DNA of 64,000 nucleotides from Acidicapsa ligni (GTDB taxonomy: Bacteria > Acidobacteriota > Terriglobia > Terriglobales > Acidobacteriaceae): assembly GCF_025685655.1 (NCBI RefSeq), contig NZ_JAGSYG010000002.1:62001-126000 (forward strand). Direction: 5' to 3'. The first letter of the stretch is position 1, and each line of letters opens with the position of its first letter. Both the position numbers and the translations under genes were made by a program. Under the pieces are notes generated by a model that was given only the letters and a program-made list of their open reading frames with translations, made no database searches and was not told the origin of the DNA. Of the stretch, positions 8,973 to 63,190 are shown one piece after another.

Positions 8973-10037
8973 ATGTCATCTAACGGTTATCCATCGCGTA
9001 CATCGCGTTCGCACGGTTTTCGCTCGCTGTTCAGCATGTTTTCGAGTGATCTGGCGATCGATCTTGGCACAGCTAACACCCTCGTTTTTGCGGCGGGTAA
9101 AGGAATCGTGGTCAATGAGCCATCGATTGTCGCCATTAACAAAAATACCGGCGAAGTAGAAGCCGTGGGCAAAGAGGCCAAGGACATGCTCGGCAGGACG
9201 CCGGGCAATATCGTGGCTATCAAACCGATGAAAGACGGCGTCATCGCGGACTTCAAAGTCACCGAGAAGATGCTGAATTACTTCATCCAGAAGGCGCACA
9301 ACCGCAAGATGCTGGTGCATCCGCGAATTGTGATCGGTGTGCCTTCAGAGATTACGCAGGTGGAAAAGCGTGCGGTTGAGGATTCGGCGTACCGCGCCAA
9401 GGCCAGCGAAGTCTACCTGGTAGAGCAGGCGATGGTTGCGGCAATCGGTGCGGGATTGCCGATTACCGAGGCTTACGGCAACATGGTGGTCGATATCGGC
9501 GGCGGAACCAGTGATATCGCGGTGATTTCGCTTTCGGGCATTGTGTATTCGCGGTCGGTTCGCATGGCCGGGAACCAGATGGACGAGGCGATCACCAACT
9601 ATCTGAAACGCAAGTACAACCTGCTGATCGGTGAGCGTACGGCGGAGCAGATCAAGATCGAACTGGGGTCGGCTTATGTGCTGGACAAGCCGCTGACGAT
9701 GGAGATCAAGGGGCGCAACCTGATTGAGGGCGTGCCTAAGACGATCACCATCAACGACAGCGAGATTCGCGAGTCGCTGGCGGAGTGCATTGCGGTGATT
9801 ATCAATGCGATTCGCGTGGCACTGGAGCGGACGCCACCGGAGCTTTCCGCGGATATTTCAGATCGCGGTATTGTGCTGACGGGCGGCGGTGCGTTGATCA
9901 AGAATCTCGACAAGCGCATTCGCGAAGAAACGGGCTTGCCGGTTTCGGTAGCGGATGATCCGCTGGCGTCTGTGGTGCTGGGGACGGGGAAGATGTTGTC
10001 CGATTTCCGCCTGCTGCGCAAGATCAAGATCGACTAA
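8973..10037 (+). CDS. mreB: rod shape-determining protein MreB
   Basis: A 354-residue bacterial actin that polymerises under the membrane and directs lateral-wall synthesis. Actin-fold nucleotide motifs are clear: phosphate-1 ([11 protein letters not shown]), phosphate-2 ([15 protein letters not shown]) and the adenosine motif ([15 protein letters not shown]). The FSMFSSD segment before the core could help membrane binding. About 20 residues precede the usual MreB start, and an internal ATG at 9039 (MFSSD) is an alternative start. It is first in the mreBCD-mrdA-rodA cluster; the ~210-nt gap before mreC contains a hairpin. Confidence 0.98.
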
Positions 10038-10052
10038 TCCTGACTGGCTGGG

Positions 10053-10082
10053 CGGGTGAACGGGCTGTGGCCGGTTCACCCG
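10053..10082 (+). other. hairpin between mreB and mreC
   Basis: Perfect 9-bp arms CGGGTGAAC / GTTCACCCG enclose a GC-rich 12-nt loop. It lies 16 bases after the mreB stop and is not followed by a T-run. It could be a weak terminator, attenuator or mRNA-stabilising 3' structure that makes mreB more abundant than the downstream genes. Confidence 0.55.
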
Positions 10083-10246
10083 TTAGCCTGAACGAGCGTG
10101 GCCTTATTGAGATAGCCCGTATTCAGATTGATTCGGGTGCTCGATGAGTTTATTTGCTTTTGAAGGCAATCGCTGTAAATCGTGATCTTCTGTTATGCAA
10201 TTGAGGACAGTTTGTCCTTGGTTCAATCCTCCATTCTTGAGTCATC

Positions 10247-11551
10247 ATGGAATCCTTTTTCAGCCGCTATCGCAACCTGATCGTGCTGCTGGCGGCTCTT
10301 CTGCTGCAGGTGATCGGGCTGGCGGTGCAGGTGCGCAAACCTGCTCCGATTGCGGGCAGTGCAATGGCGGCGAATTCGCATGAGAATCGCGATGGGAGCG
10401 GTGTGCGCCTGATCCGGCTTTGGGCGTCGGGATTGGTGACTCCGTTTGAGCGGGCGATTCATGGGACGAGCTCGGGCGCGAGTGGGCTTTGGGGAAACTA
10501 TCTCGACCTGCGCCATACGCGTGAAGAGAATAAACAGTTGCAGGAGACGATCGACCGGCTACGGCTGGAGCAGGCTTCGCTGATCGAGGATGCGCGGCAG
10601 GGACAGCGGCTACAGGGATTGCTTGGTTTTAGCCAAAGCTATATTTATCAGACGGTTCCGGCGCAGGTGATTGGGACGAGCGGCAGCCTTGTGTCGCGCG
10701 TGATTGTGCTGGATAAGGGCTCGCTGGATGGGCTGAAGCCGGATATGGCGGTGATTACTCCGGATGGGATTGTGGGCAAGGTGCGCGATGTGTTTCAACA
10801 CTCGGCGCAGGTGCTGTTGATCAACGATCAGACCAGCGGGGCTGGGGTGATTCTGGAGACGACGCGTATTCGGGGAATTCTGCGTGGGAATGCGGCGGGG
10901 CAGCCTCAGGTGGTTAATATTCTTGCCGATCAGAGGATTCAGCCGGGCGAGAAGGTGCTGACGGCGGGTGGGGATCAGATTTTTCCGCGCGGTCTTCCGG
11001 TGGGCGTAGTGGAGCGAGTGGCGCGCGATCCGGACCGGGGATCATTTATCAATGTGATTATCAAGTCGTCGGCAAATTTGCAGCACCTGGATGAGGTGCT
11101 GGTGATTACGGCGCTGGATGCGCACCTGTCTCCGCAGCAGATGGCGGATTTGAAGACCAGCGAAGAGTTGAAGGGTGCGGAAGCGGCGGCGGATGCGGAG
11201 AGGAAAAAGGCTGCGCTGGAGATGTCGGAGCGGTTGCCGAGTTTGACTGATCCCAATGCTCCGGTTGATCCGAATGCTGCGAAGCAGGGGGCGAATGGGC
11301 AGCCGGATTCGGGTGTTCCTGTGCCTCCGCCAACGCCGAAACCACTGCCTGCTGCGCATGCGGATCGATTTTCGCCGGGGTCTACCGGTGCTGGAGCGCC
11401 TGCAACGGGAAGCGGCGATGCTGCGGATGGGGATGAGACGTTGACGAAGCCGGTTACGTCTAAGCCTGTTACGACCAAGCCTGCGACTTCTAAACCTGTC
11501 ACGCCGAAGCCTGTTACACCGAAGCCGGGAACGCAGGGAGGGGATCAGTAG
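10247..11551 (+). CDS. mreC: rod shape-determining protein MreC
   Basis: A 434-residue inner-membrane protein that links MreB to the periplasmic synthases. It has one N-terminal TM (NLIVLLAALLLQVIGLAVQV), a coiled coil (~85-120) and the beta-rich MreC core (~130-285) with motifs such as PDMAVITPDGIVGKV and FPRGLPVGVV. The family core ends near 290. The remaining ~145 residues are Ala/Pro-rich and disordered, ending in tandem KPVT-type repeats (TSKPVTTKPATSKPVTPKP) not usual for MreC. The ATG used has no strong ribosome binding site. It is followed by mreD after two bases. Confidence 0.95.
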   Translation: MESFFSRYRNLIVLLAALLLQVIGLAVQVRKPAPIAGSAMAANSHENRDGSGVRLIRLWASGLVTPFERAIHGTSSGASGLWGNYLDLRHTREENKQLQETIDRLRLEQASLIEDARQGQRLQGLLGFSQSYIYQTVPAQVIGTSGSLVSRVIVLDKGSLDGLKPDMAVITPDGIVGKVRDVFQHSAQVLLINDQTSGAGVILETTRIRGILRGNAAGQPQVVNILADQRIQPGEKVLTAGGDQIFPRGLPVGVVERVARDPDRGSFINVIIKSSANLQHLDEVLVITALDAHLSPQQMADLKTSEELKGAEAAADAERKKAALEMSERLPSLTDPNAPVDPNAAKQGANGQPDSGVPVPPPTPKPLPAAHADRFSPGSTGAGAPATGSGDAADGDETLTKPVTSKPVTTKPATSKPVTPKPVTPKPGTQGGDQ

Positions 11552-11553
11552 CG

Positions 11554-12075
11554 ATGCAGGTTCTGACACCCGATTACCGACGCGATCTGGAGACTCGCAG
11601 TTATCCCATCTATATTTATGTGCTGGTGCCGCTTGCTGCGCTGGTATTGCAGGCGTGGCTGCCGCGGGTACTTCGGAATTATTCGTACTTCGATTTGCCG
11701 TTACTGGTGACGATCTACTTTGCGTTGAACAGGCGTAGTCCGATTCATGGATCGTTGCTTGGGGCTGTGCTGGGTATGGCGCAGGATGGGCTGACGCAGG
11801 GAGCTATCGGTATTCATGGGATTGCGAATACGATCTGCGGATTTCTTGCTGCTTCGATAGGGGTTCGCATTGTGGTGGAAAACAATGCGATCCGGATGGT
11901 GTTGAATTTTTTGCTGGCATTACTTTCCAGCGCGGTGGTGGTCTTTATTACCAGGGTGCTGCTGGGATTGGGTTTGGAGTGGAACTGGCTGGACCAGGTT
12001 CTGAAGGCTGTGGGCAATGCGGTGATTGGGCTGGCGGTGTTTCCGTTGCTGGATCGTACGCAGGCCAGGGATTAG
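11554..12075 (+). CDS. mreD: rod shape-determining protein MreD
   Basis: A 173-residue polytopic membrane protein with about five hydrophobic segments, starting with IYIYVLVPLAALVLQAWLP, and the family pattern LPLLVTIYFAL...GSLLGAVLGMAQDGL. It sits between mreC and mrdA as in other rod-shape clusters. The start follows GGAGGGG at the end of mreC, with a two-base intergenic gap, so translation is probably coupled. MreD completes the MreBCD complex that positions PBP2-RodA. Confidence 0.93.
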   Translation: MQVLTPDYRRDLETRSYPIYIYVLVPLAALVLQAWLPRVLRNYSYFDLPLLVTIYFALNRRSPIHGSLLGAVLGMAQDGLTQGAIGIHGIANTICGFLAASIGVRIVVENNAIRMVLNFLLALLSSAVVVFITRVLLGLGLEWNWLDQVLKAVGNAVIGLAVFPLLDRTQARD

Positions 12076-12167
12076 GCGACGCAGTGAATCTGGTGTGAGT
12101 CTGTTTGAGTAAGGCTGGGCGAATCTGAATTGGCGCTATGTTTTTATAGACGGGATACGGGCGAATT

Positions 12168-14390
12168 ATGGCTTTCGATAAGATCGATCGCGTGAATCGA
12201 GATGAGAAGCTGCAGCCGCTGAAGTTGACGGTGGTGCAGTACGGCATTTTGCTCATGATGCTGGTGCTGGTTGGCGGTTTGTGGCGGTTGCAGGTGTTGG
12301 GCGGCGATAACTGGCGGGTGCTGGCGGAGCAGAACCGCATTCGCAAAGTTCCGGTGATGGCGGCTCGGGGCAAATTGCTCGATCGCGAAGGCCGCCTGCT
12401 GGTGGATAACTATCCTTCGGTCTCGTGCTTTCTTCTTCGGGAACAGAATCGCAATCTGGATGCCGATCTTCCGTTGATCGCGAAGGGGCTGAATCTCGAT
12501 CTGGACCAGTTGCGGAATACGCTGCATCGCTTCCGGCTGGCTCCGGGGTATCAGCCGATTCCGATCAAGCAGGATATTTCGCCGGATGAGCAAGCGTTCA
12601 TTGAGGCGCATCGGAATGAGCTTCCTGAGCTGGAGACGGTGGATGAGGAGCGAAGGCTGTATCCGCGCGATGGCTTTGCGGCGCATTTGATCGGGTATGT
12701 CGGCGAGGTGAGCGAGGAGATGCTCAACGATCCGAAATACGCCTATTACGAACCGGGCGATGTGGTGGGCCGAGCTGGCGTAGAGCAGACATACGACGAG
12801 TTGCTGCGCGGGCAGGATGGCTCGATGGATGTGGTGGTCGACAGCCACGGGCGTGAGGTTGGACGGCAGGGAATTCAATTGGCTACGCCGGGTCAGGATC
12901 TGAAGCTGACGCTCGATATCGATATTCAGCGTGCTGCTGAGCTGGCGCTGGGCACGGCCAATGGTGCGGTGGTGGCGATGGATCCGCGCAATGGCGAGAT
13001 TCTTGCGCTGGTTTCGCATCCGAGCTACGACCCCAATGCTTTTGCGGTGCGTATTGGGCGGTCGGATTGGAACAAGCTGATTACGGATCCGAATCACCCG
13101 CTGATGAACAAGGCTATTCAGGATCAACTTGCCCCGGGGTCTACTTTCAAAATCATCATGTCTGTGGCTGGATTGCAGGAGGGGATTGCGCAGAATCTCA
13201 AGGTTAATTGCGCGGGCGGCGGCACATTTTTTGGACACTTCTTCAAATGCGACCATCATCATGGTTTGCTGAGTATCCATGAGGCGATACCGGAATCCTG
13301 CGACACGTACTTTTACGATCTGGCCTCGAAGCTGGGGATCGACACGATTGCCAAGTACGCGACTGCGCTGGGAATCGGCTCGAAGACGGGTGTCGATCTG
13401 CCGAATGAGATGGCGGGTACGATGCCGTCCACACAGTGGAAGATGAAGAATTATCACGAGAAATGGTATGCGGGCGAGGTCATTTCCGTGGGCATTGGGC
13501 AGGGGGCGGTCGCGGTTACGCCGATCCAGTTGGTGCGCGCGCTGAGCGGTATTGCTTCGAATGGACACCTGGTGCGGCCGCATGTGGTGAATAGCGAGCA
13601 GCTTCCGGCGCAGTTCAAGCAGGCGGTGCTGGACACGTATTCGGGATCGGGAGTGAAGGATGTTTCGCTGAACTCCGATACGTGGATGACGGTGACCGAG
13701 GGCATGGCGCAGACGACTCAGCCGGGGCTTTATCACACGGCGCAGGCTTCGCGGCTTGAGGGGATCGATTTTGCGGGCAAGACGGGCACGGCGCAGGTGG
13801 TGGGCGGCGGCGATACGCATAATCGAGGCGGCGTGCGTACTCCGAATGCGTGGTTTGTAGGGATGGTTCCGCGACGCAATCCGGAGATTGCTGTGGTGGT
13901 TTTGCAGGAGCATGGCGATTTCGGATCGGGATCGGCGAAGCTGGCTGCACAGATTATTACGGCGTATGTGAACAAGAAGCGCAGGCAGGAAGGAAATCTG
14001 CTGTTGCAAGCGAATAAGCCATCGACGCCGGTGGAGATGGGGGCGGTCTGGTCGACGCCTAAGCCGGAGGCGCATCGGGCTGGTTCGCGAGCTGGTTCAA
14101 AGGCTGATTCGAATGGCAAGGGCGATGAGCAGGCAGATGGGCTACAGGTTGCGGGGATGAGTGGTGGGCATTTTCTGATCGATACGGGTTCGCCTTACTC
14201 GTCTCCGAAGATGGCTTCGGTGCCTTTTCCGAGCAGGCCTCGGCCGGTGCCGAAGGATCCTATTGAGCCGAAGGATCCTATGGAGCCGGTGAATGCGGAT
14301 GCGATGAAGGCTGGTCTGGCTGGTGCGGGTTCCGGTGAGTCTGCTGGTGCAGGGGCGCTGGCTGCGCGTTTTCGCAGAGTGATTAACTGA
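12168..14390 (+). CDS. mrdA: penicillin-binding protein 2 (peptidoglycan transpeptidase)
   Basis: A 740-residue class B PBP that cross-links lateral-wall peptidoglycan together with RodA. It has one N-terminal TM (~22-45), a pedestal domain beginning at KVPVMAARGKLLDREGRLL, and a transpeptidase domain (~250-610). The nucleophile is Ser325 in PGSTFK (Lys328), the SxD motif is in ESCDTYFYD as usual for PBP2, and KTGTA has Lys538. About 120 residues after the domain are low complexity (Ala/Gly/Pro, with PKDPIEPKDPMEP) and appear disordered, longer than in typical PBP2. The last stop base overlaps the rodA start (TGATG). Confidence 0.97.
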   Translation: MAFDKIDRVNRDEKLQPLKLTVVQYGILLMMLVLVGGLWRLQVLGGDNWRVLAEQNRIRKVPVMAARGKLLDREGRLLVDNYPSVSCFLLREQNRNLDADLPLIAKGLNLDLDQLRNTLHRFRLAPGYQPIPIKQDISPDEQAFIEAHRNELPELETVDEERRLYPRDGFAAHLIGYVGEVSEEMLNDPKYAYYEPGDVVGRAGVEQTYDELLRGQDGSMDVVVDSHGREVGRQGIQLATPGQDLKLTLDIDIQRAAELALGTANGAVVAMDPRNGEILALVSHPSYDPNAFAVRIGRSDWNKLITDPNHPLMNKAIQDQLAPGSTFKIIMSVAGLQEGIAQNLKVNCAGGGTFFGHFFKCDHHHGLLSIHEAIPESCDTYFYDLASKLGIDTIAKYATALGIGSKTGVDLPNEMAGTMPSTQWKMKNYHEKWYAGEVISVGIGQGAVAVTPIQLVRALSGIASNGHLVRPHVVNSEQLPAQFKQAVLDTYSGSGVKDVSLNSDTWMTVTEGMAQTTQPGLYHTAQASRLEGIDFAGKTGTAQVVGGGDTHNRGGVRTPNAWFVGMVPRRNPEIAVVVLQEHGDFGSGSAKLAAQIITAYVNKKRRQEGNLLLQANKPSTPVEMGAVWSTPKPEAHRAGSRAGSKADSNGKGDEQADGLQVAGMSGGHFLIDTGSPYSSPKMASVPFPSRPRPVPKDPIEPKDPMEPVNADAMKAGLAGAGSGESAGAGALAARFRRVIN

Positions 14391-15505
14391 TGCCGCGTGC
14401 GACAGGATCCAGGGGTTTTGGCGGGCTTGGCGATTTTGACTGGGCGCTGCTGGGGATGGTGGTGACGCTTTGCACCATTTCTGTCTTTGAAATTTACTCG
14501 GCCACGCTGCATACGAAGTACTCCGGCTTTCATACCAAGCAGATGTATTGGATTGGCGGGGGCATCGTGGTGATGTTTGTGATGTCCAAGATCGACTATC
14601 ACCGCCTGCTGGATGTCGCTTATTGGGCGTATGGATTTTGCCTGCTGTCGCTGGTGGCGGTCAAACTGGTGGGCAGCAAGGTGCTGGGTGCTCGACGGTG
14701 GATCAAGATTGGGCCGATGCATTTTCAGCCGTCGGAGTGGGTGAAGCTGGTGCTGATTGTGCTGGTGGCGCACTACTTTGCCAATCTGGGTGGAAAGCGG
14801 CTGACGTGGGGCGATGTGTTCAAAGCGATTGGGCTGGTCGGCATTCCGATGCTGCTGGTGCTTTCGCAGCCTGATTTGGGAACGGCTTTGACGTACACGC
14901 CGATTTTGCTCGCTGGGTTATTTCTGGGCGGCATTCACTGGAAGCAGGCGGCGATTTTGTGTACGGTGGGGCTGGTGGCGATTGTCGGAGTCTGGTCGAG
15001 CGGCAAGATTCTCAAGCCGTATCAGAAGGCGCGGTTGACGAGTTTTATCAATCCGGATAACGACCCGAAGGGATCGGGATACCAGATTCGGCAGTCGCTG
15101 ATTGCGGTGGGTTCGGGCGGAATCTGGGGCCAGGGAGCGGAACAGGGGACGCAGACGCAGGGGGATTTTCTGCCGATTCCTCATGCGGACTTCATTTTTG
15201 CTGCTTTTAGTGAGGAGCATGGGTTTACGGGCGCGTTTGTTGTTCTGCTGCTATACTTCGTGATATTGATGCGTTTGATTCAGAACGCTCAAACGGCCGC
15301 AGACATGTCCGGCTCGCTCCTGGTTATGGGAGTTGTCGCCGTGTTGACCTTTCAAATTGCGGTCAACGTTGGCATGGTCATCGGTTTTATGCCAGTCACC
15401 GGAATTCCTTTACCGTTAATGAGTTACGGCGGATCTTCGGTGTTGTTCACGTTTCTGGCGCTGGGTGTGGTTATGAATGTCCGTATGCGCCGTTTTGTGA
15501 ACTAG
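14390..15505 (+). CDS. rodA: RodA, SEDS peptidoglycan glycosyltransferase
   Basis: A 371-residue polytopic SEDS protein that polymerises lipid II during elongation and pairs with PBP2. About ten TM segments are visible. Family motifs are present: GARRWIKIGPMHFQPSE, the QPDLGTAL segment with the functional Asp, the DFIFAAFSEEHGF loop, and VTGIPLPLMSYGGSS near the end. The start overlaps the mrdA stop by one base, which predicts translational coupling. It is last in the rod cluster; a G-U-containing hairpin follows. Confidence 0.97.
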   Translation: MPRATGSRGFGGLGDFDWALLGMVVTLCTISVFEIYSATLHTKYSGFHTKQMYWIGGGIVVMFVMSKIDYHRLLDVAYWAYGFCLLSLVAVKLVGSKVLGARRWIKIGPMHFQPSEWVKLVLIVLVAHYFANLGGKRLTWGDVFKAIGLVGIPMLLVLSQPDLGTALTYTPILLAGLFLGGIHWKQAAILCTVGLVAIVGVWSSGKILKPYQKARLTSFINPDNDPKGSGYQIRQSLIAVGSGGIWGQGAEQGTQTQGDFLPIPHADFIFAAFSEEHGFTGAFVVLLLYFVILMRLIQNAQTAADMSGSLLVMGVVAVLTFQIAVNVGMVIGFMPVTGIPLPLMSYGGSSVLFTFLALGVVMNVRMRRFVN

Positions 15506-16060
15506 GTCTGGCAACAGAGGTAGTATCAAAGGTTTTCACTTTTAGCCGGAGATTGGGCTGAAAGTTCGTAGTTGTTAAGAATCAATCACTTCGCCGGCAG
15601 GTTTCGATTGCAAACAGCCCCGGCAGGATTGGGTGAATGAGCACGCAGAGACGGGTAGACCGTGTGCAGCGCTTCCTAAGTACGAAACTCACCGGAACCG
15701 GGATTCCATTGTCGATTAACGACGGTGGCACGGATCAGGAGAATCAGTTTCGTCGCGTTGCTACTGGCTTAACGGCATTTGCCACAAACTCTCTGAGCTC
15801 AAGCAGTTGCTGTAAATGGCGTTTTCGCCATGGGTACTATGAATCCGGGTGTGCAGGCTTTTCCTTTTCAGGGTTGAGCGGCGTGCCTGATTCTTCTCCG
15901 GTACAGATGGGGTCCTCGATTGGATCTTATTCTGGATATAAAGCCGGATTCCTTCCCGAGCAGCTTCCTTCCTATTCTCCTCTCCTGGTACGTGTGTCTC
16001 CCTTGCATTCGGCCTTGCCGCAGGTCTCGACGAGCTCAGGCTCCGGGACGGAAAGGCAAC
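15506..16060 (+). other. rodA-rng intergenic region / long rng leader
   Basis: 555 bases with no gene I can support. A hairpin at 15538-15565 (ACTTTTAGCC / GGCTGAAAGT, one G-U pair) follows rodA but lacks a T-run. The rest is pyrimidine-rich near 15955-16015. If the rng promoter is close to rodA, the mRNA leader would be about 450 nt; enteric rne also has a long leader used for autoregulation, so a similar role is possible but unproven. Confidence 0.4.
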
Positions 16061-19000
16061 ATGGCCAAGGAAATATGTATCTCCAGCACGCCGCACGAAA
16101 CGCGGCTTGCGATATTGGAAGATGATCAGCTCGCAGAGATTTACTACGAGCGGGAAAATGAATATACACTCGCAGGCTCGGTTTACAAGGGCCGCGTAAC
16201 CCGGGTTCTTCCGGGCATGCAATCCGCGTTTGTGGATATAGGGCTGGAACGCGATGCGTTTCTCTATGTCACGGACTTTCTGGAGATGGAAGACCAGGAA
16301 GATACGGACGAGGTAGAGAGAGCAGCGGCGAACGGGGACACGCATCGTCCGCAGATGGCAGCGCCTGTGGCTCAACAGGGACAGCAGGCACAGGCTGCAC
16401 AGCGCGCGCCTCGCAATGAGGAGCAGCGTGGGGAGCGAGAGGGCCGCGGTGGCCGGGATGGCCGTCCACGGCGCGGAGAGCCTCGGCTGGCAGAGCCACG
16501 GCAGGCAACTCCAGTAGAGACAGAGGGGCAGACTGCTGCTCAATTTTCAGTAACTTCGGCTGTGTCTTCAACTGCGCAGGCAGGTGCGCAGGCGGATGAG
16601 TTTGCGATTCCGGCGTCGGTTGCGGATGCTGCCGCTCAGCAGGATGAGGCCGAGGATCAGGGTGCTCGCCGTTTGCGCGGGCGTCGTCGACGACGCGGCG
16701 GACGCGGACGGGATGAGGCGGGTCAGGCTGCCGGTGCTGTTGCGCCTGCCGGCGAACCTACGGAAGAGCTTATTGTTGCGGATGAGGAAGAGGAAGCGGA
16801 GACTCCTCGGTTGGAGTTTGAGGCTGCGGCTTCTGCGCCACGAGCGGTTAGTTCTCGGGAGGCTGCTCCGGAGCGGCATAGGCAGAGGTCGGCTGAGCCG
16901 GTTCAGACTTCGGCGGCTACCACGCCATTTCTGCTGCCGGGTGAGTCGCTGGGAAAATATGGCTCGGCACCGATCGTTCCTACTCCGAGCCGGTTGGTTC
17001 TGAGCGAGCTTCCGCCGGATACTTCCGATCCATTGCCGGAGCGGACGGCGGCGAAGCCATCCACCTTGATTGAGCATGAGATTGCCTGGGACGGCAAGGG
17101 GCTGATGCCTGGCGAGTCGATTGCCCGCCATCGCAGGGCTGAGCCGGAGGTCAAGGTTAGCCACGATATTCCGGTCAACATTCCGGTTAAGGCTGAGGCG
17201 GAAATCGCTGCAGAGCCTGTCAGTGTTGCAGAACCTGTGAGTGCCCTGGCGGATCATTCCGGTGAGATTTCGGAGCCGGTGGTTGAGGCTGCTGAAGGGT
17301 TTGAGGAAGTTCATGCGTTGCCGGTGGCTGAAATTTCGAGCGGAATACCGAGCGGAATGCATGAGGAAGAGTTCGAAGAAGAAGAGCTTGAGTTCTCGGA
17401 CGAAGACGCGGTAGCTGAAGTTGGCGCGGAAGAAGAGGCGAATGCCGCTGAGCAGTTTACTGAGGCTGAAAGCGAGCATGCTCATGAAGGTCATGATGGC
17501 GACATCTCTGCGAGCCACAATGTAGACCCGTTGCCTCCGAGCGGCTTCCGGCTTAAGGATCTTTTTGGTTCGCGTAAGAAAGAGGAAGAAGTTGAGCCTC
17601 CTGCGCCTGTGCAGAAGACGGTGACTGCGGTTTCTGCGTATGCTCCCGGTGCGGGATTGGTGGAAGAAGAAGTTATCGAGGATGAGGAGTACGAGTTCAC
17701 TCCGCTGAAGGCGCATCACGGCGAAGAGCACGATCTCGAAGAGCTGGAAGAAGAGACGCTGCAGCAGCAGATTCGCTCAGGGGCATTGGGCGAGATGTTG
17801 CAGGAAGCGCACATGGATCATCGCATCCTGATCGATTCGGATGACGAAGAGGATGCAGAGGAAGAGGGTGCGCCTGCGGTTGGAGGCGGCCGTTCGGCGG
17901 CTGCACCGGGTCGGGATCGCGGGGACAGGAGTGGCGGCCGCGGTCGTCGCGGTGGCCGCGGACCGGGCGGAGCTGGTAGCTCCGGTGGTTCGGGCGGCGA
18001 TGGCCGTCGCGGGCCTTCGCGGCGCTCGGCGCAGACTTCGGACCTGCCGATTATCAGCGATCTGTTGAAGCCGGGGCAGGAGATCCTGGTTCAAATTGCC
18101 AAAGAGCCAATCGCCAAGAAGGGCGCGCGGATCACGAGCCATATTGCGCTGCCGGGGCGGTTCCTGGTGTTCATGCCGACGGTCAGCCATATTGGTGTGA
18201 GCCGCAAGATTGCTTCGGATGAGGAGCGTCAGCGGCTGAAGCGGATCCTGGTGAGTGAGAAGGGCGATGCGACCGGCGGATTTATTGTTCGCACGGCTGC
18301 CGAGGGAGCGACCGAAGAGGAGCTTCGCGCGGATCTGCGGTTCCTGATCAATCTTTGGAACGACATCAAGCAACGCGCGGATACGTCGAAGTCGCCAGCG
18401 TTGATCTATCACGATCTCAACCTGATCGAGCGTATTCTGCGCGACCAGGTGAGCGATAACTTCTCGCACATATGGGTTGATTCCGAGGCGGATTACGAGC
18501 GGATTGTTCGCTTCCTGAATCGCTTCTCGCCGGACCTGGTGCGGCGTGTGAAGCTGTACACGAAGGAAATTCCGCTGTTTGAGCACTTCGGCATTCAGGA
18601 TGAGATTTCGAAGGCGCTGCGCTCGAAGGTTTGGCTGAAGAGCGGTGGTTCCATCGTGATCAACCAGACGGAAGCGCTGGTCGCAATCGATATCAACACC
18701 GGCAAATATGTGGGCAAGACGGCGCGGCTTGAGGACACGATTCTCAAGACTAACCTGGATTCGATTCCGGAGATTGTGCGGCAGATTCGACTGCGCGATC
18801 TTGGCGGCATCATCGTGATCGACTTTATCGATATGGATGAGCGCAAGAATCGTACTCGCGTGATGGCTGCTCTCGAAGAGGCACTGAAGCAGGATCGTGC
18901 GCCGACGAAGGTATTGCAGTTCAATGATTTTGGCCTGGTGGCGATTACGCGCAAGCGCGTGAAGCAGTCACTAGAGCGAACTCTCAGTGTGCCGTGCCCT

Positions 19001-19249
19001 GTTTGCCAGGCGACCGGCATGGTGAAGTCCGCGGCGACGGTTGCCAACGAAATCTACATTGAAGTGCGCAAGATGCGGAAGCATTTTGACCAGACCGAAG
19101 TGTTGTTGCGCGTCAATCCTGAGACGGCGAAGGCACTGAAGGCGAACAATGCGCGCTGGTTGACGGAGCTTGAAGATCTCGCGGGCAAGAATGTGTTGAT
19201 CAAGAGCGATGCAACGCTGCATCCGGAGCAGTTCGATATTCAAGGGTAA
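16061..19249 (+). CDS. rng: ribonuclease E/G with a long insertion in the S1 domain
   Basis: A 1062-residue endoribonuclease that cuts single-stranded AU-rich RNA in mRNA decay and rRNA processing. The S1 domain begins normally (GSVYKGRVTRVLPGMQSAFV) and breaks near residue 76. It resumes near 660 (LLKPGQEILVQIAKEPIAKK), so about 580 low-complexity acidic residues with RG-rich patches are inserted. The catalytic region is intact: AIDINTGKYVG and VIDFIDMD supply the two metal-binding Asp, and CPVCQATG (~978) is the Zn-link motif. Start: ATG 16061 after GGAAAGG, where family homology begins; the frame is open further upstream but unconserved. A strong terminator follows. Confidence 0.95.
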   Translation: MAKEICISSTPHETRLAILEDDQLAEIYYERENEYTLAGSVYKGRVTRVLPGMQSAFVDIGLERDAFLYVTDFLEMEDQEDTDEVERAAANGDTHRPQMAAPVAQQGQQAQAAQRAPRNEEQRGEREGRGGRDGRPRRGEPRLAEPRQATPVETEGQTAAQFSVTSAVSSTAQAGAQADEFAIPASVADAAAQQDEAEDQGARRLRGRRRRRGGRGRDEAGQAAGAVAPAGEPTEELIVADEEEEAETPRLEFEAAASAPRAVSSREAAPERHRQRSAEPVQTSAATTPFLLPGESLGKYGSAPIVPTPSRLVLSELPPDTSDPLPERTAAKPSTLIEHEIAWDGKGLMPGESIARHRRAEPEVKVSHDIPVNIPVKAEAEIAAEPVSVAEPVSALADHSGEISEPVVEAAEGFEEVHALPVAEISSGIPSGMHEEEFEEEELEFSDEDAVAEVGAEEEANAAEQFTEAESEHAHEGHDGDISASHNVDPLPPSGFRLKDLFGSRKKEEEVEPPAPVQKTVTAVSAYAPGAGLVEEEVIEDEEYEFTPLKAHHGEEHDLEELEEETLQQQIRSGALGEMLQEAHMDHRILIDSDDEEDAEEEGAPAVGGGRSAAAPGRDRGDRSGGRGRRGGRGPGGAGSSGGSGGDGRRGPSRRSAQTSDLPIISDLLKPGQEILVQIAKEPIAKKGARITSHIALPGRFLVFMPTVSHIGVSRKIASDEERQRLKRILVSEKGDATGGFIVRTAAEGATEEELRADLRFLINLWNDIKQRADTSKSPALIYHDLNLIERILRDQVSDNFSHIWVDSEADYERIVRFLNRFSPDLVRRVKLYTKEIPLFEHFGIQDEISKALRSKVWLKSGGSIVINQTEALVAIDINTGKYVGKTARLEDTILKTNLDSIPEIVRQIRLRDLGGIIVIDFIDMDERKNRTRVMAALEEALKQDRAPTKVLQFNDFGLVAITRKRVKQSLERTLSVPCPVCQATGMVKSAATVANEIYIEVRKMRKHFDQTEVLLRVNPETAKALKANNARWLTELEDLAGKNVLIKSDATLHPEQFDIQG

Positions 19250-19268
19250 TTTTTAAAAAGATGGAGAC

Positions 19269-19297
19269 GGGCTGAGGCGAAAGCTTCAGCCCTTTTT
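19269..19297 (+). terminator. rho-independent terminator after rng
   Basis: A 10-bp stem GGGCTGAGGC / GCTTCAGCCC (one G-U pair) closes a GAAA tetraloop and is followed by TTTTT. It lies 19 bases after the rng stop. Confidence 0.93.
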
Positions 19298-19452
19298 CAT
19301 GCGCTGAATACGAAATCGTGAATGGATTCGCAGTGATTGCGATGCGTATCGCCAAGGGGCAACTTTTTTGAGAGAGATGTGTCTAATGTTGCAACGAGAG
19401 CGATGCACGACTCTCTGGTGGAAGCAATTTAGCTCATTTGAGGTCACAACGT

Positions 19453-20304
19453 ATGTTCATTCACAAAGCTGCGTCGCCTGCGCGACGCGTCCTTTACTTT
19501 GCATTCGCAACTGTTTGCGCTATCTCGGTAAGCGTATTTCCAGCGATGGCACAGACGGAATCTTCCCACTCCTCCAACGATGGTTTCAGCGATGGTTTTT
19601 CCCACGCGAACTTCTCCAGTTCAACAGATGGTTTGAGCCCTGCAGCGACGGAAGGATACGTGGCTGCTCCTCCTGCGCTTTATGGAGCGGCGGAGCGGCA
19701 TGATGTCAGCTATGGGTATCACGATCATAGTTGGACTAACCGGATCGCTTTTGAGGCCGGCGGCGGATTCAATGCACCGATCGGCAACGATGAGCCATTC
19801 ATTACATGGGGTGGCAACTTTACGGTAGGCGCCGGGCTGCATCTGCAGCGTCATTTGAGTTTGCTGGCTGAGTATCAATTCATGGATAACAAGCTGCCTG
19901 GCGCACTTATCTCGGATGCTGGCGCGCAAGGCGGGCATGCGCATATCTGGTCGTTGACGCTTGATCCTGTGGTTGATCTTTTTCCTGCGCGCAAGAACGA
20001 TGTCTATGTGACGGGCGGTGGCGGATTCTATCGTAAGGTCACGAGCTTTACCGATCCTGAGGAAGTTATACAGTGCTATTACTTCTGCGAAGTCGGCGTT
20101 GTGGATGTTGTGGTGAGCCACTTCTCCAGCAACCAGGGCGGGTTGAATTTCGGTGTAGGTTTTACGCGCAAGTTGAGCAGCGATAGCAATCTGAAGGCTT
20201 TCGCAGAGGCTCGCTATGTGTGGATTAACACGCCGGGACTTGGTGAGCAGGATGGTTTAGGTACGACAGGACTGATTCCGGTTACGTTCGGTCTTCGCTG
20301 GTAG
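19453..20304 (+). CDS. outer-membrane beta-barrel protein
   Basis: A 283-residue exported protein. The signal peptide covers ~1-30 and ends with an AMA-Q cleavage site (FPAMAQ). A Ser-rich linker follows, then a region of alternating beta strands (RIAFEAGGGFNAPIG, LLAEYQFMD, FGVGFTRKLS, AFAEARYVWINTPG) that ends in the aromatic FGLRW, the usual terminal signal for barrel assembly. It fits an OmpA-like/OmpW-like small-barrel fold without an OmpA peptidoglycan domain. Function is unknown. ATG 19453 is preceded by GAGGT; the longer frame from a TTG lacks support. Flanked by terminators on both sides, so monocistronic. Confidence 0.8.
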   Translation: MFIHKAASPARRVLYFAFATVCAISVSVFPAMAQTESSHSSNDGFSDGFSHANFSSSTDGLSPAATEGYVAAPPALYGAAERHDVSYGYHDHSWTNRIAFEAGGGFNAPIGNDEPFITWGGNFTVGAGLHLQRHLSLLAEYQFMDNKLPGALISDAGAQGGHAHIWSLTLDPVVDLFPARKNDVYVTGGGGFYRKVTSFTDPEEVIQCYYFCEVGVVDVVVSHFSSNQGGLNFGVGFTRKLSSDSNLKAFAEARYVWINTPGLGEQDGLGTTGLIPVTFGLRW

Positions 20305-61294: not shown

Positions 61295-63190
61295 ATGAGA
61301 GCTAGCGTGAGGGTCCGGGGATGGCCTCGTTCCATCAAGTTTCAGCTTCTGGCTGGACTGGTGCTTCTGGAGACGCTTTCTCTCCTGTTATTCGGGGTGC
61401 TGCTGATTCATCGCCAGTCGCGTGAGACTTATTTTCGCGCGCAACAGCGGTTAGGGCGTCAGTGCGACACGCTGGTTTTGCAAATCAGAGATGCACTGCA
61501 GGCCGGTCGTCCGGAGATGATTGGCGCCTCGCTGCATATGGTGGGTTCTGCGCCCAATGTTGCCATTGCCAAGGTGTCGGATGTCGATAACAAGATCCTC
61601 TATGTAAACAAAGGGGTGCCTGCGGGGCATGCGTTGACACCGGCAGAGCGCAGCCAGATTCCGCTGATGGTGCTCAATATATCCCATGTCTTCAAGATCG
61701 GCCCGGATGTATGGGAGTCGGCGAAGCCGATTTATTTCCAGGGCAAATTGTTTGGGTTCATCTGGGTGCAAATGGATCCGGCCTGGGATCGCGGCCAGTT
61801 GATCTTTTTGCTGCACTCCATCACACTGTTTGGCTTTATCTGGATCGCGACATCGGTTCTTATGGCATGGGGATTGGCCCGGTCGATTACCGGACCGCTT
61901 GCTGTGCTTCACCGGGGGACGCGGGCATTGATGGAATCTCCTGAAAGCCACACCAGCTTTCCGCTGCCGGTAACTGTGCATAACGAGATTGGGGACCTGA
62001 TTGAGGCGTTTAACCGCATGATGGCCTCAATCGAAGAACAGCGCTCCGGGCTGAGCGATACTCTCTCATTGCTTGATTCCATGCTGGCGAATGCGCCTAT
62101 TGGGTTGGCCTTTTTTGACCGCCGCTGCCGGTTTGTGCGGGTCAATCGGATTTTTGCCGACACTACGGGAATTCCGCTGAGCCGGCATCTTGGGCGGCCA
62201 CTGTCGGAGGTTTTGCCGGCCGCTGTTGCACTCCAATTGGAAAAGACGATTCTGGGTGTCTTTGAAAATGACGAGCCGGTACGCGATCTGGAGTTGACGG
62301 GGACGGCGTTGGGAACCACTCGTCCGTGGACATGGATTACCTCTGCGTATCCGATCCGCACCACGCCCAGCCAGGTTCGCTGGGTTGGGTTGATCGTGAT
62401 GGACGCGAGCGACCGCAAGCGCGGCGAGGAAGCGCTGCGTAAGACGGAGAAACTGGCTGCGACCGGCAGGCTGGCTGCCTCCATCGCACACGAAATCAAC
62501 AATCCTCTGGAGGCGATCACGAACCTGTTGTACCTGCTGATCAACTATTCGGGACTGGAAGAGCCAGCCCTGGGTTATGCGGTCATGGCGGATCACGAGG
62601 TTCGGCGCATCTCGGAGATCACCCAGCAGACGTTGCGGTTTTACCGGCAGTCCACGCTGCCTGCGTTGGCCAATCTCTCGGAATTGCTCGATTCGGTGCT
62701 GAGCCTGCACCAGGGACGGCTGCGCAACCTGGGGATTGAAGTCAAGCGGAAATATGATGCGAAGACCACGCTCTATTGTTTTGCAGGAGAACTGCGGCAG
62801 GTGTTTGCCAACCTGGTAGGCAACGCGATTGACGCGATGCCGGAGGGTGGGCGGTTGGAGGTTCGAGCGCGACGCTCCCGAGACTGGAGCAATCCGTCGC
62901 GCACCGGAGTTCGCTTCCAGGTGGCGGATACGGGGTCCGGTATGCAGCCAGAGGTGCGCAAGCATATCTTTGAGCCTTTTTTCACGACCAAGGAAGTGAC
63001 CGGAACAGGACTCGGGTTGTGGGTGAGTTGGGAGATCGTGGTCAAGCACCACGGTTCGATTCGCGTGCGAAGCAGGTCGAATGCAGATGGAGGCAAGTCC
63101 GGTACGGCCTTTGAGCTGTTCTTTCCGGATGAGCCAGAGTTGGTCACTGCGCAGGAAGTAGAACAGGCGGAGATATCCGCGCCTGCCTGA
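61295..63190 (+). CDS. sensor histidine kinase with HAMP and PAS domains
   Basis: A 631-residue membrane kinase. TM1 ~17-37, extracytoplasmic sensor ~38-165, TM2 ~168-193, HAMP ~195-247, a PAS domain ~255-375 (MLANAPIGLAFFDRRCRFVR), HisKA with His399 in AASIAHEINNPLEAI, and a HATPase domain with N-box (VFANLVGNAIDAMPEGG), G1 (DTGSGM), F-box (FEPFFTTK) and G2 (GTGLGL). It phosphorylates an unknown response regulator; none is adjacent. The ATG follows GGGAGAGGG. The close spacing behind ypdA suggests a shared transcript and perhaps a link to redox sensing, which is inference. Confidence 0.93.
   Translation: MRASVRVRGWPRSIKFQLLAGLVLLETLSLLLFGVLLIHRQSRETYFRAQQRLGRQCDTLVLQIRDALQAGRPEMIGASLHMVGSAPNVAIAKVSDVDNKILYVNKGVPAGHALTPAERSQIPLMVLNISHVFKIGPDVWESAKPIYFQGKLFGFIWVQMDPAWDRGQLIFLLHSITLFGFIWIATSVLMAWGLARSITGPLAVLHRGTRALMESPESHTSFPLPVTVHNEIGDLIEAFNRMMASIEEQRSGLSDTLSLLDSMLANAPIGLAFFDRRCRFVRVNRIFADTTGIPLSRHLGRPLSEVLPAAVALQLEKTILGVFENDEPVRDLELTGTALGTTRPWTWITSAYPIRTTPSQVRWVGLIVMDASDRKRGEEALRKTEKLAATGRLAASIAHEINNPLEAITNLLYLLINYSGLEEPALGYAVMADHEVRRISEITQQTLRFYRQSTLPALANLSELLDSVLSLHQGRLRNLGIEVKRKYDAKTTLYCFAGELRQVFANLVGNAIDAMPEGGRLEVRARRSRDWSNPSRTGVRFQVADTGSGMQPEVRKHIFEPFFTTKEVTGTGLGLWVSWEIVVKHHGSIRVRSRSNADGGKSGTAFELFFPDEPELVTAQEVEQAEISAPA

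Follow-up and report, generated by a model that had tools for sequence, protein, structure and literature searches.

Charged, disordered insertions of 50–150 residues have been described in the S1 domain of RNase E from alpha-proteobacteria and plants (PMC4245959). The insert of Caulobacter crescentus RNase E adjoins the RNA-binding surface, and the fragment that contains it, residues 1–274, binds RhlB; the same enzyme retains a C-terminal scaffold (PMC4245959). In Escherichia coli and Pseudomonas, the C-terminal scaffold of RNase E is a long, fast-evolving disordered chain carrying short motifs and Arg-rich patches (PMC4435900, PMC11964227). In the disordered region of the Pseudomonas aeruginosa enzyme, Arg-rich and REER motifs bind RNA, other short motifs serve to recruit PNPase and RhlB, and foci depend on the RNA binding (PMC11964227). 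Here we describe an RNase E/G gene of Acidicapsa ligni (Acidobacteriota; Terriglobia) in which about 590 residues of predicted disorder separate the two halves of the S1 domain. The window, to which all coordinates refer, is the whole stretch of 64,000 nucleotides analysed (NZ_JAGSYG010000002.1, positions 62,001–126,000 of the forward strand).

A split S1 domain in an RNase E/G

The gene forms a single unbroken frame of 1062 codons on the forward strand, with an ATG at 16061 and a stop ending at 19249. A phmmer search against the PDB aligned the protein to E. coli RNase E (2bx2) in two pieces, residues 4–72 with chain positions 10–79 and residues 661–999 with positions 93–431, leaving a junction of 588 residues in the window protein compared with 13 in the E. 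coli enzyme. A first-pass annotation, made from the DNA letters, had proposed an RNase E/G at 16061–19249 whose S1 domain is split by about 580 residues, and the two-piece alignment bears this out. The loop concerned is the one that is enlarged in C. crescentus RNase E (4OXP), where chain positions 91 and 152 flank it and correspond to residues 70 and 650 here.

An AlphaFold2 model was computed on a 63-sequence alignment, which was built solely from the window sequence and members of an 80-locus set. Block means were 85–98 for residues 1–70 and 661–1062, and the predicted local distance difference test (pLDDT) fell below 50 at residues 94–234, 236–506, 518–558 and 587–653. A second model, of the relative at locus L036, showed the same pattern of order and disorder; it was made on a 37-sequence alignment that shares most of its rows with the first. 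The model was then compared with known structures by VIA-align. Its residues 39..703 gave a match to the E. coli S1 domain (1smx) that covers 78 of 81 residues (Z 12.3, rmsd 2.6), and its residues 35..787 gave one to the Caulobacter fragment of S1 and 5′-sensor (4oxp) that covers 180 of 200 (Z 21.1, rmsd 2.7). Because the match spans both sides of the insert, the halves are predicted to form one S1 domain, which is the outcome that the first-pass annotation had suggested looking for by structure prediction. With Foldseek alone the alignment reached about 400 columns and did not cover both halves with confidence, whereas VIA-align bridged the insert; its rows beyond RNase E (FAU-1/RNase W, Z 17; exosome, RNase P, actin and MreB, Z at most 10) were not used. 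In the model, then, the S1 (OB) domain is complete and folded from two halves about 590 residues apart, and neither side holds a complete domain alone, a possibility that had been raised against the split.

Two S1 halves that are predicted to fold together might also serve a two-chain enzyme, cut inside the insert in the cell and held together non-covalently. Disordered regions of RNase E are protease-prone and RNase E fragments occur in pull-downs (PMC10783494), but the whole insert is under coding constraint, as set out below, and no cleavage site turned up, although none was searched for; we consider such an enzyme very improbable. A negligible probability attaches to an artefact, be it a frameshift or an assembly error joining two genes, of which the first-pass annotation had warned, or an intein. 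Artefact, two-gene fusion and intein are ruled out by the one open frame and by the same architecture in 40 of the 40 paired family loci listed, and recurrence in many genomes excludes a local assembly error. Furthermore, no intein or other Pfam domain was found in the insert at E 0.001, and Cys makes up 0.0% of the 23,320 residues of 48 inserts.

The remainder of the protein resembles other members of the family. PF10150 (RNase_E_G) matched residues 697–967 (E 8.6e-104; 347 bits against a cut-off of 25.5) and PF20833, the RNase E/G thioredoxin-like domain, matched residues 978–1061. No further Pfam domain was found in the 1062 residues, insert included, at E 0.001, nor was there a second PF10150 match in the genome at that threshold. 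The TIGR00757 (Rne/Rng) score of 483 bits, above the cut-off of 326, makes the protein a member of this family. The RNase G equivalog NF008689 was the top NCBIfam model, but its score of 498.7 lies below the cut-off of 594 and the gene was not filed as RNase G; the insertion may itself depress this whole-protein score. Residues F57, K687, R744, D877, N879 and D921 are invariant in the 63-sequence alignment, and T745, C979 and C982 are conserved in at least 90% of its sequences. The zinc-link CPVC is invariant in the 37-sequence alignment, as is F67, which is not among the conserved positions listed for the larger one. On the basis of the alignment, we take F57, K687, R744, D877, N879 and D921 to be F57, K112, R169, D303, N305 and D346 of E. 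coli, with R744–T745 presumably equivalent to R169–T170. The signature residues of the family (the catalytic Asp pair, the 5′-sensor Arg/Thr and the Zn-link cysteines) are present, and the protein is a putative endoribonuclease and putative tetramer.

Distribution and constraint of the insert

To survey the insert in other genomes, the distance between the first S1 half and PF10150 was measured, which is about 53–75 residues in insert-free sequences. Among 327 genomes searched, 284 had a match to the N-terminal half and 281 to PF10150. From the best rows of these two lists, 104 loci in 103 genomes could be paired, a procedure that favours high scorers and leaves out loci in only one list; the counts of paired loci given here are among the matches listed. 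All 40 paired loci from the gene's own family (39 genomes) carry the insert, with distances of 468–903 residues (median 664), and their net insert length is roughly 400–850 residues, a twofold variation. In a second family of the class, two loci gave distances of 453 and 460. The 62 paired loci from the rest of the phylum ranged from 53 to 577 residues, exceeding 100 in 45 cases, 200 in 37 and 300 in 22, and not exceeding 80 in 16. Genome G298 has two insert-bearing RNase E/G genes, L113 (C26) and L124 (C71), with junctions of 568 and 767 residues, which may be paralogues or the result of contamination; junction lengths, here and in the tree, include the 26–36 or so residues found in insert-free Acidobacteriota.

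Relatives whose records are not titled Acidobacteria had only 7–61 residues at the S1 junction in 64 of 64 cases, a count that goes by record title (L048, L050 and L102 are titled merely 'bacterium'), leaves out L107, which has no N-terminal half, and is silent on alpha-proteobacteria and plants because the 80-locus set behind it includes no plant and no record titled as an alpha-proteobacterium. A tree of the catalytic part, rooted at its midpoint, united every sequence whose junction has 144 residues or more in a single clade (local support 0.986). The sister of this clade was the sequence with a junction of 98 (0.891), and insert-free Acidobacteriota (26–36) were placed just outside. The simplest reading, with which the tree is consistent, is a single gain within Acidobacteriota followed by growth. 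The insert-free L087, titled Acidobacteria, was placed among non-acidobacterial sequences and is possibly a mislabelled metagenome-assembled genome. Apparent N-terminal extensions in the insert-free L044, L045 and L087 were judged by eye to be non-coding stop-to-stop read-through and were rejected.

The ratio of non-synonymous to synonymous substitution rates (dN/dS), determined against six of seven chosen relatives (L033 was left out), was 0.12–0.24 in the insert and 0.04–0.07 in the catalytic part. The insert values are rough because dS exceeded 1.3 in every comparison of this region. On these ratios the insert is under clear coding constraint.

Conserved islands and motifs

The window insert contains 15.5% Glu, 14.6% Ala, 9.9% Gly, 8.4% Arg and 0.0% Cys, with Pro also abundant, and it lies on the disordered side of the charge-hydropathy line. 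Together with pLDDT values below 50 nearly throughout, this agrees with the disorder that had been proposed from the translation. Basic or RG-rich stretches near residues 103–145, 193–235 and 613–655 are interleaved with acidic ones that reach a net charge of −19 per 40 residues, and the RG patches quoted in the first-pass annotation are present at residues 201–219 and 617–637. Late in the insert the window model contains a helix pair (559–572 and 575–585, pLDDT about 71–74), and a like pair occurs at 488–500 and 503–513 in the L036 model (pLDDT about 65).

When 20 close relatives were aligned, merely 17.5% of the insert columns were conserved at a level of at least 80%. These columns are strongly clustered: 68 windows of 12 columns had at least 7 conserved, compared with a shuffled mean of 0.84, and this number was reached in 0 of 2000 shuffles. 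Along the chain the islands follow the order Arg patch, LPGES copy 1, WDG-LPGES copy 2, VDPLPP, acidic island, helix pair, RG patch and S1 re-entry. Five marker strings keep their order wherever they are present in the 20 relatives, the exact VDP and EEET strings being absent from several. In the Arg patch, W[RK][GN]RR occurs in 29 of 38 family inserts (0.05 expected), with Leu in place of Trp in the window copy.

The pattern [LM]PGE[STK][LIVM]x[KR][YH] was found in all 38 family inserts (64 sites; shuffles 0.0), in 6/6 clipped inserts from other genera of the same family and in 8/8 inserts at the order or class level, these last two sets having been extractable from 6 of 7 and 8 of 13 listed loci, respectively. 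The class-level total of 52/52, against none in shuffles, represents 50 distinct genes, as L020/L123 and L021/L132 are the same genes, and includes L037–L040, assigned by title and tree. LPGES[LI]xKY is present in one to three copies per insert. The short conserved motifs for which the first-pass annotation had advised an alignment thus exist, both as LPGES and as clustered islands. Among 17 inserts from the rest of the phylum, 8 carry F[EQ]R[IV]xD[DES] repeats instead of LPGES (14 sites; for example in L042, L144 and L145). We also searched the genome with an 18-base motif pattern, which gave 12 matches compared with 3 for its reversed control; one match was copy 1, and copy 2, with Met for Leu, lies outside the pattern. 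In frames longer than 60 residues at the other 11 matches, seven LPGE peptides were listed and none had an x[KR][YH] ending, the nearest being LPGESLATH in L166; therefore no second motif-bearing protein was found.

The small fraction of conserved columns, the wide differences in length and the biased composition would suit neutral growth, in which a tolerated loop was enlarged mostly by low-complexity slippage and few of its residues are functional. This is difficult to reconcile with dN/dS of 0.12–0.24 in the insert, with the strong clustering of the islands, with a motif in 52 of 52 inserts, or with the count of insert-free members among the paired family loci listed, which is 0 of 40; we consider it improbable. 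A further alternative concerns the acidic segments and the helix pair, which might form a regulatory lid. Such a lid would occupy the RNA face of S1 until substrate or partners push it aside, the role put forward for the Caulobacter insert, which is shorter. Acidic blocks are indeed present (net −19 in one 40-residue window), and the helix pair is conserved and predicted in two homologues. In addition, a helix of the Caulobacter S1 insert sits at the position where E. coli RNase E binds RNA, and deletion of the Arabidopsis insert lowers activity (PMC4245959). However, a length of some 590 residues, separate Arg-rich patches and repeated motifs are more than a lid would need. Moreover, the helix pair lies about 75–100 residues from the S1 re-entry with no docking readable from the model, and length varies about twofold within the family. 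We therefore regard a lid as unlikely, if less so than neutral growth.

C-terminus, gene features and genomic context

Where the junction of an Acidobacteriota sequence has 90 residues or more, the C-terminal extension amounts to 0–3 residues (48 of 48 sequences), in line with the earlier statement that the scaffold is not placed at the C-terminus. Insert-free relatives sometimes have long C-terminal regions, for instance 648 residues past the catalytic match in L053, a Clostridia record. The genome encodes PNPase and a protein matching TIGR00649, which we take to be the RNase J family, and for RNase Y it gave nothing above the cut-off, just a partial match of 20 bits. Given these genes, a degradosome centred on the RNase E/G is plausible. 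The positions of the features are collected in Table 1.

Table 1. Positions in the window of the RNase E/G gene and of the features it encodes, with the basis of each assignment
Feature	Position	Strand	Basis
RNase E/G (rng-like) gene, 1062 aa	16061..19249	+	Single open reading frame; PF10150, PF20833, TIGR00757
S1 first half, residues 39–73, including F57 and F67	16175..16279	+	E. coli RNase E alignment; 1smx match starting at residue 39
Disordered insertion inside S1, residues 74–660 (predicted)	16280..18040	+	pLDDT below 50 nearly throughout; absent from 64/64 sampled relatives not titled Acidobacteria
Arg-rich patch GARRLRGRRRRRGGRGRDE, residues 201–219, candidate RNA-binding patch	16661..16717	+	Island in 20-sequence alignment
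Motif copy 1, LLPGESLGKYG, residues 291–301	16931..16963	+	Motif counts against shuffles
Motif copy 2, IAWDGKGLMPGESIARHR, residues 341–358	17081..17134	+	Motif counts; 20-sequence conservation
Conserved island HNVDPLPPSGFRLKDLFGSRKK, residues 486–507	17516..17581	+	20-sequence conservation
Conserved acidic island VEEEVIEDEEYEFTPL, residues 534–549	17660..17707	+	20-sequence conservation
Helix-pair island (predicted helices 559–572, 575–585)	17732..17827	+	Window and L036 models; conserved columns
RG-rich patch GRDRGDRSGGRGRRGGRGPGG, residues 617–637, near S1 re-entry	17909..17971	+	Sequence; 20-sequence conservation
S1 second half, residues 664–703, including K687	18050..18169	+	E. coli RNase E alignment; structure match; K687 invariant
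5′-sensor R744–T745	18290..18295	+	R744 invariant, T745 at least 90%; IVRTA aligned to E. coli RNase E
Catalytic Asp pair D877 and D921, with N879	18689..18823	+	Invariant in 63 sequences
Zinc-link CPVC (C979, C982)	18995..19006	+	At least 90% in 63 sequences, invariant in 37

Directly upstream on the same strand lie mreB, mreC, mreD, PBP2 and rodA (8973–15505). This order is reminiscent of the E. coli mre-rng neighbourhood, and a RodA homologue is upstream in 12 of the 14 named Acidobacteriota loci L032–L045, insert-bearing and insert-free alike. Between rodA and the RNase gene is a leader of 555 nt (15506–16060; core 15580–15672), conserved at 68–90% identity over 39–494 bases in 13 of 29 relative loci, several of the 29 ending before the leader. 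Most of 12 aligned loci retain its elements CGGCAGGATTGGG and ACGCAGAGACGGG, and it contains a small hairpin, with changes on both sides at 2 of 13 pairs. The folding energy of the leader was no better than that of shuffles (z 0.04), and Rfam gave no match in 15400–19500 at gathering scores and none for the leader with E values of up to 1. E. coli rne has an autoregulatory leader; the sequence upstream of the acidobacterial gene could be an autoregulatory leader too, or a short upstream open reading frame starting MSTQRR.

Discussion

The insertion site is not new, since S1 inserts have been published for alpha-proteobacteria and plants (PMC4245959). The first-pass annotation set the placement inside S1 apart from the C-terminal scaffold of E. 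coli RNase E; what is unusual is the size of the insert, its motifs and the missing C-terminal scaffold, and not the position, which has precedents of 50–150 residues. With these inserts the acidobacterial one shares its charged and disordered character and the same loop, as judged by comparison with the Caulobacter sequence alone and with no plant sequence. It differs in length (about 590 residues in the window protein, and as many as about 850 in other family members) and in the absence of the C-terminal scaffold that the Caulobacter enzyme retains, and we found no description of an LPGES motif or of Arg/Gly patches in alpha-proteobacterial or plant inserts in the available part of PMC4245959.

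Comparison with the scaffolds of E. coli and Pseudomonas RNase E reveals disorder, conserved short motifs and Arg-rich patches in common, although the location is inside S1 here and after the catalytic half there. By eye, and with no systematic motif comparison, none of the E. coli or Pseudomonas docking sites was recognised in the window insert. E. coli RNase G (rng/cafA) is similar in its core, which ends with the small, thioredoxin-like domain and has no tail; RNase G is not known to carry an S1 insert. The Arg-rich patch of the window insert may resemble a nonapeptide of cyanobacterial RNase E. The cyanobacterial peptide, short and conserved, recruits PNPase from a disordered region at the extreme C-terminus (PMC10989914), whereas the islands described here are inside S1. 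As compared with known systems, what appears to be new is the size of the insert, its graded growth within one phylum, its conserved motif islands and a C-terminus that has no scaffold. We found no literature description of the size, the graded growth, the missing scaffold or the motif; we claim no absolute priority, as the classification of Ait-Bara and Carpousis (2015) may mention internal noncatalytic regions.

In our judgement the best reading of these results, and a reasonably probable one, is that the insert is an internal degradosome scaffold on an RNase G-type core. This core would consist of RNase H-like, S1, 5′-sensor, DNase I-like, Zn-link and small domains, and the connecting loop of S1 would have grown in one acidobacterial lineage to become the sole large disordered region of the enzyme. 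Arg/Gly-rich patches may bind RNA or drive multivalent assembly, and short motifs, chiefly LPGES[LI]xKY, may serve as docking sites for partners, among which PNPase, RNase J or a DEAD-box helicase are possibilities. Acidic spacers would hold the chain in an extended form and would compete with RNA. Since the loop exits and re-enters at S1, partners and captured RNA would be held at the RNA-entry face, as opposed to the distal tip of a C-terminal tail. It is by analogy with the described scaffolds that we infer RNA binding, partner binding and assembly or condensate formation by the insert.

Several points weigh against an internal scaffold. A literature search yielded no partner, RNA-binding or condensate data for acidobacterial RNase E/G, and the conserved islands could regulate the enzyme itself instead of docking partners. 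The overall scores of the window model are modest (mean pLDDT 65.1, pTM 0.60), because the insert is disordered. None of the 17 inserts from the rest of the phylum, and none of 70 short junctions, contains the [LM]PGE[STK][LIVM]x[KR][YH] pattern; its absence from those 17 leaves a common partner throughout the phylum via LPGES unsupported. Moreover, the shuffles control for composition and not for shared descent, so that conservation of the motif among related genomes is not independent evidence.

Overall, the results suggest that the scaffold has been relocated from the end of the enzyme to the site of RNA entry. More tentatively, and with a little less than an even chance in our estimation, in Terriglobia the scaffold would have moved into S1 and would emerge at the RNA-entry face of each subunit, where the repeated, undescribed LPGES[LI]xKY motif would hold a dedicated partner; other acidobacterial lineages would use this internal position too, but with motifs of another kind (F[EQ]R[IV]xD). 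The usual picture of a degradosome is a catalytic core that ends in a disordered tail, and a scaffold inside the RNA-binding domain tests whether position matters: must partners sit at the RNA channel, or can they hang from a distant tether? The graded series within one phylum, which starts at none and passes about 70 and 200 residues before it reaches about 850, lets the growth of a scaffold and the gain of its motifs be traced, and the conserved motif provides a direct handle for finding the partner.

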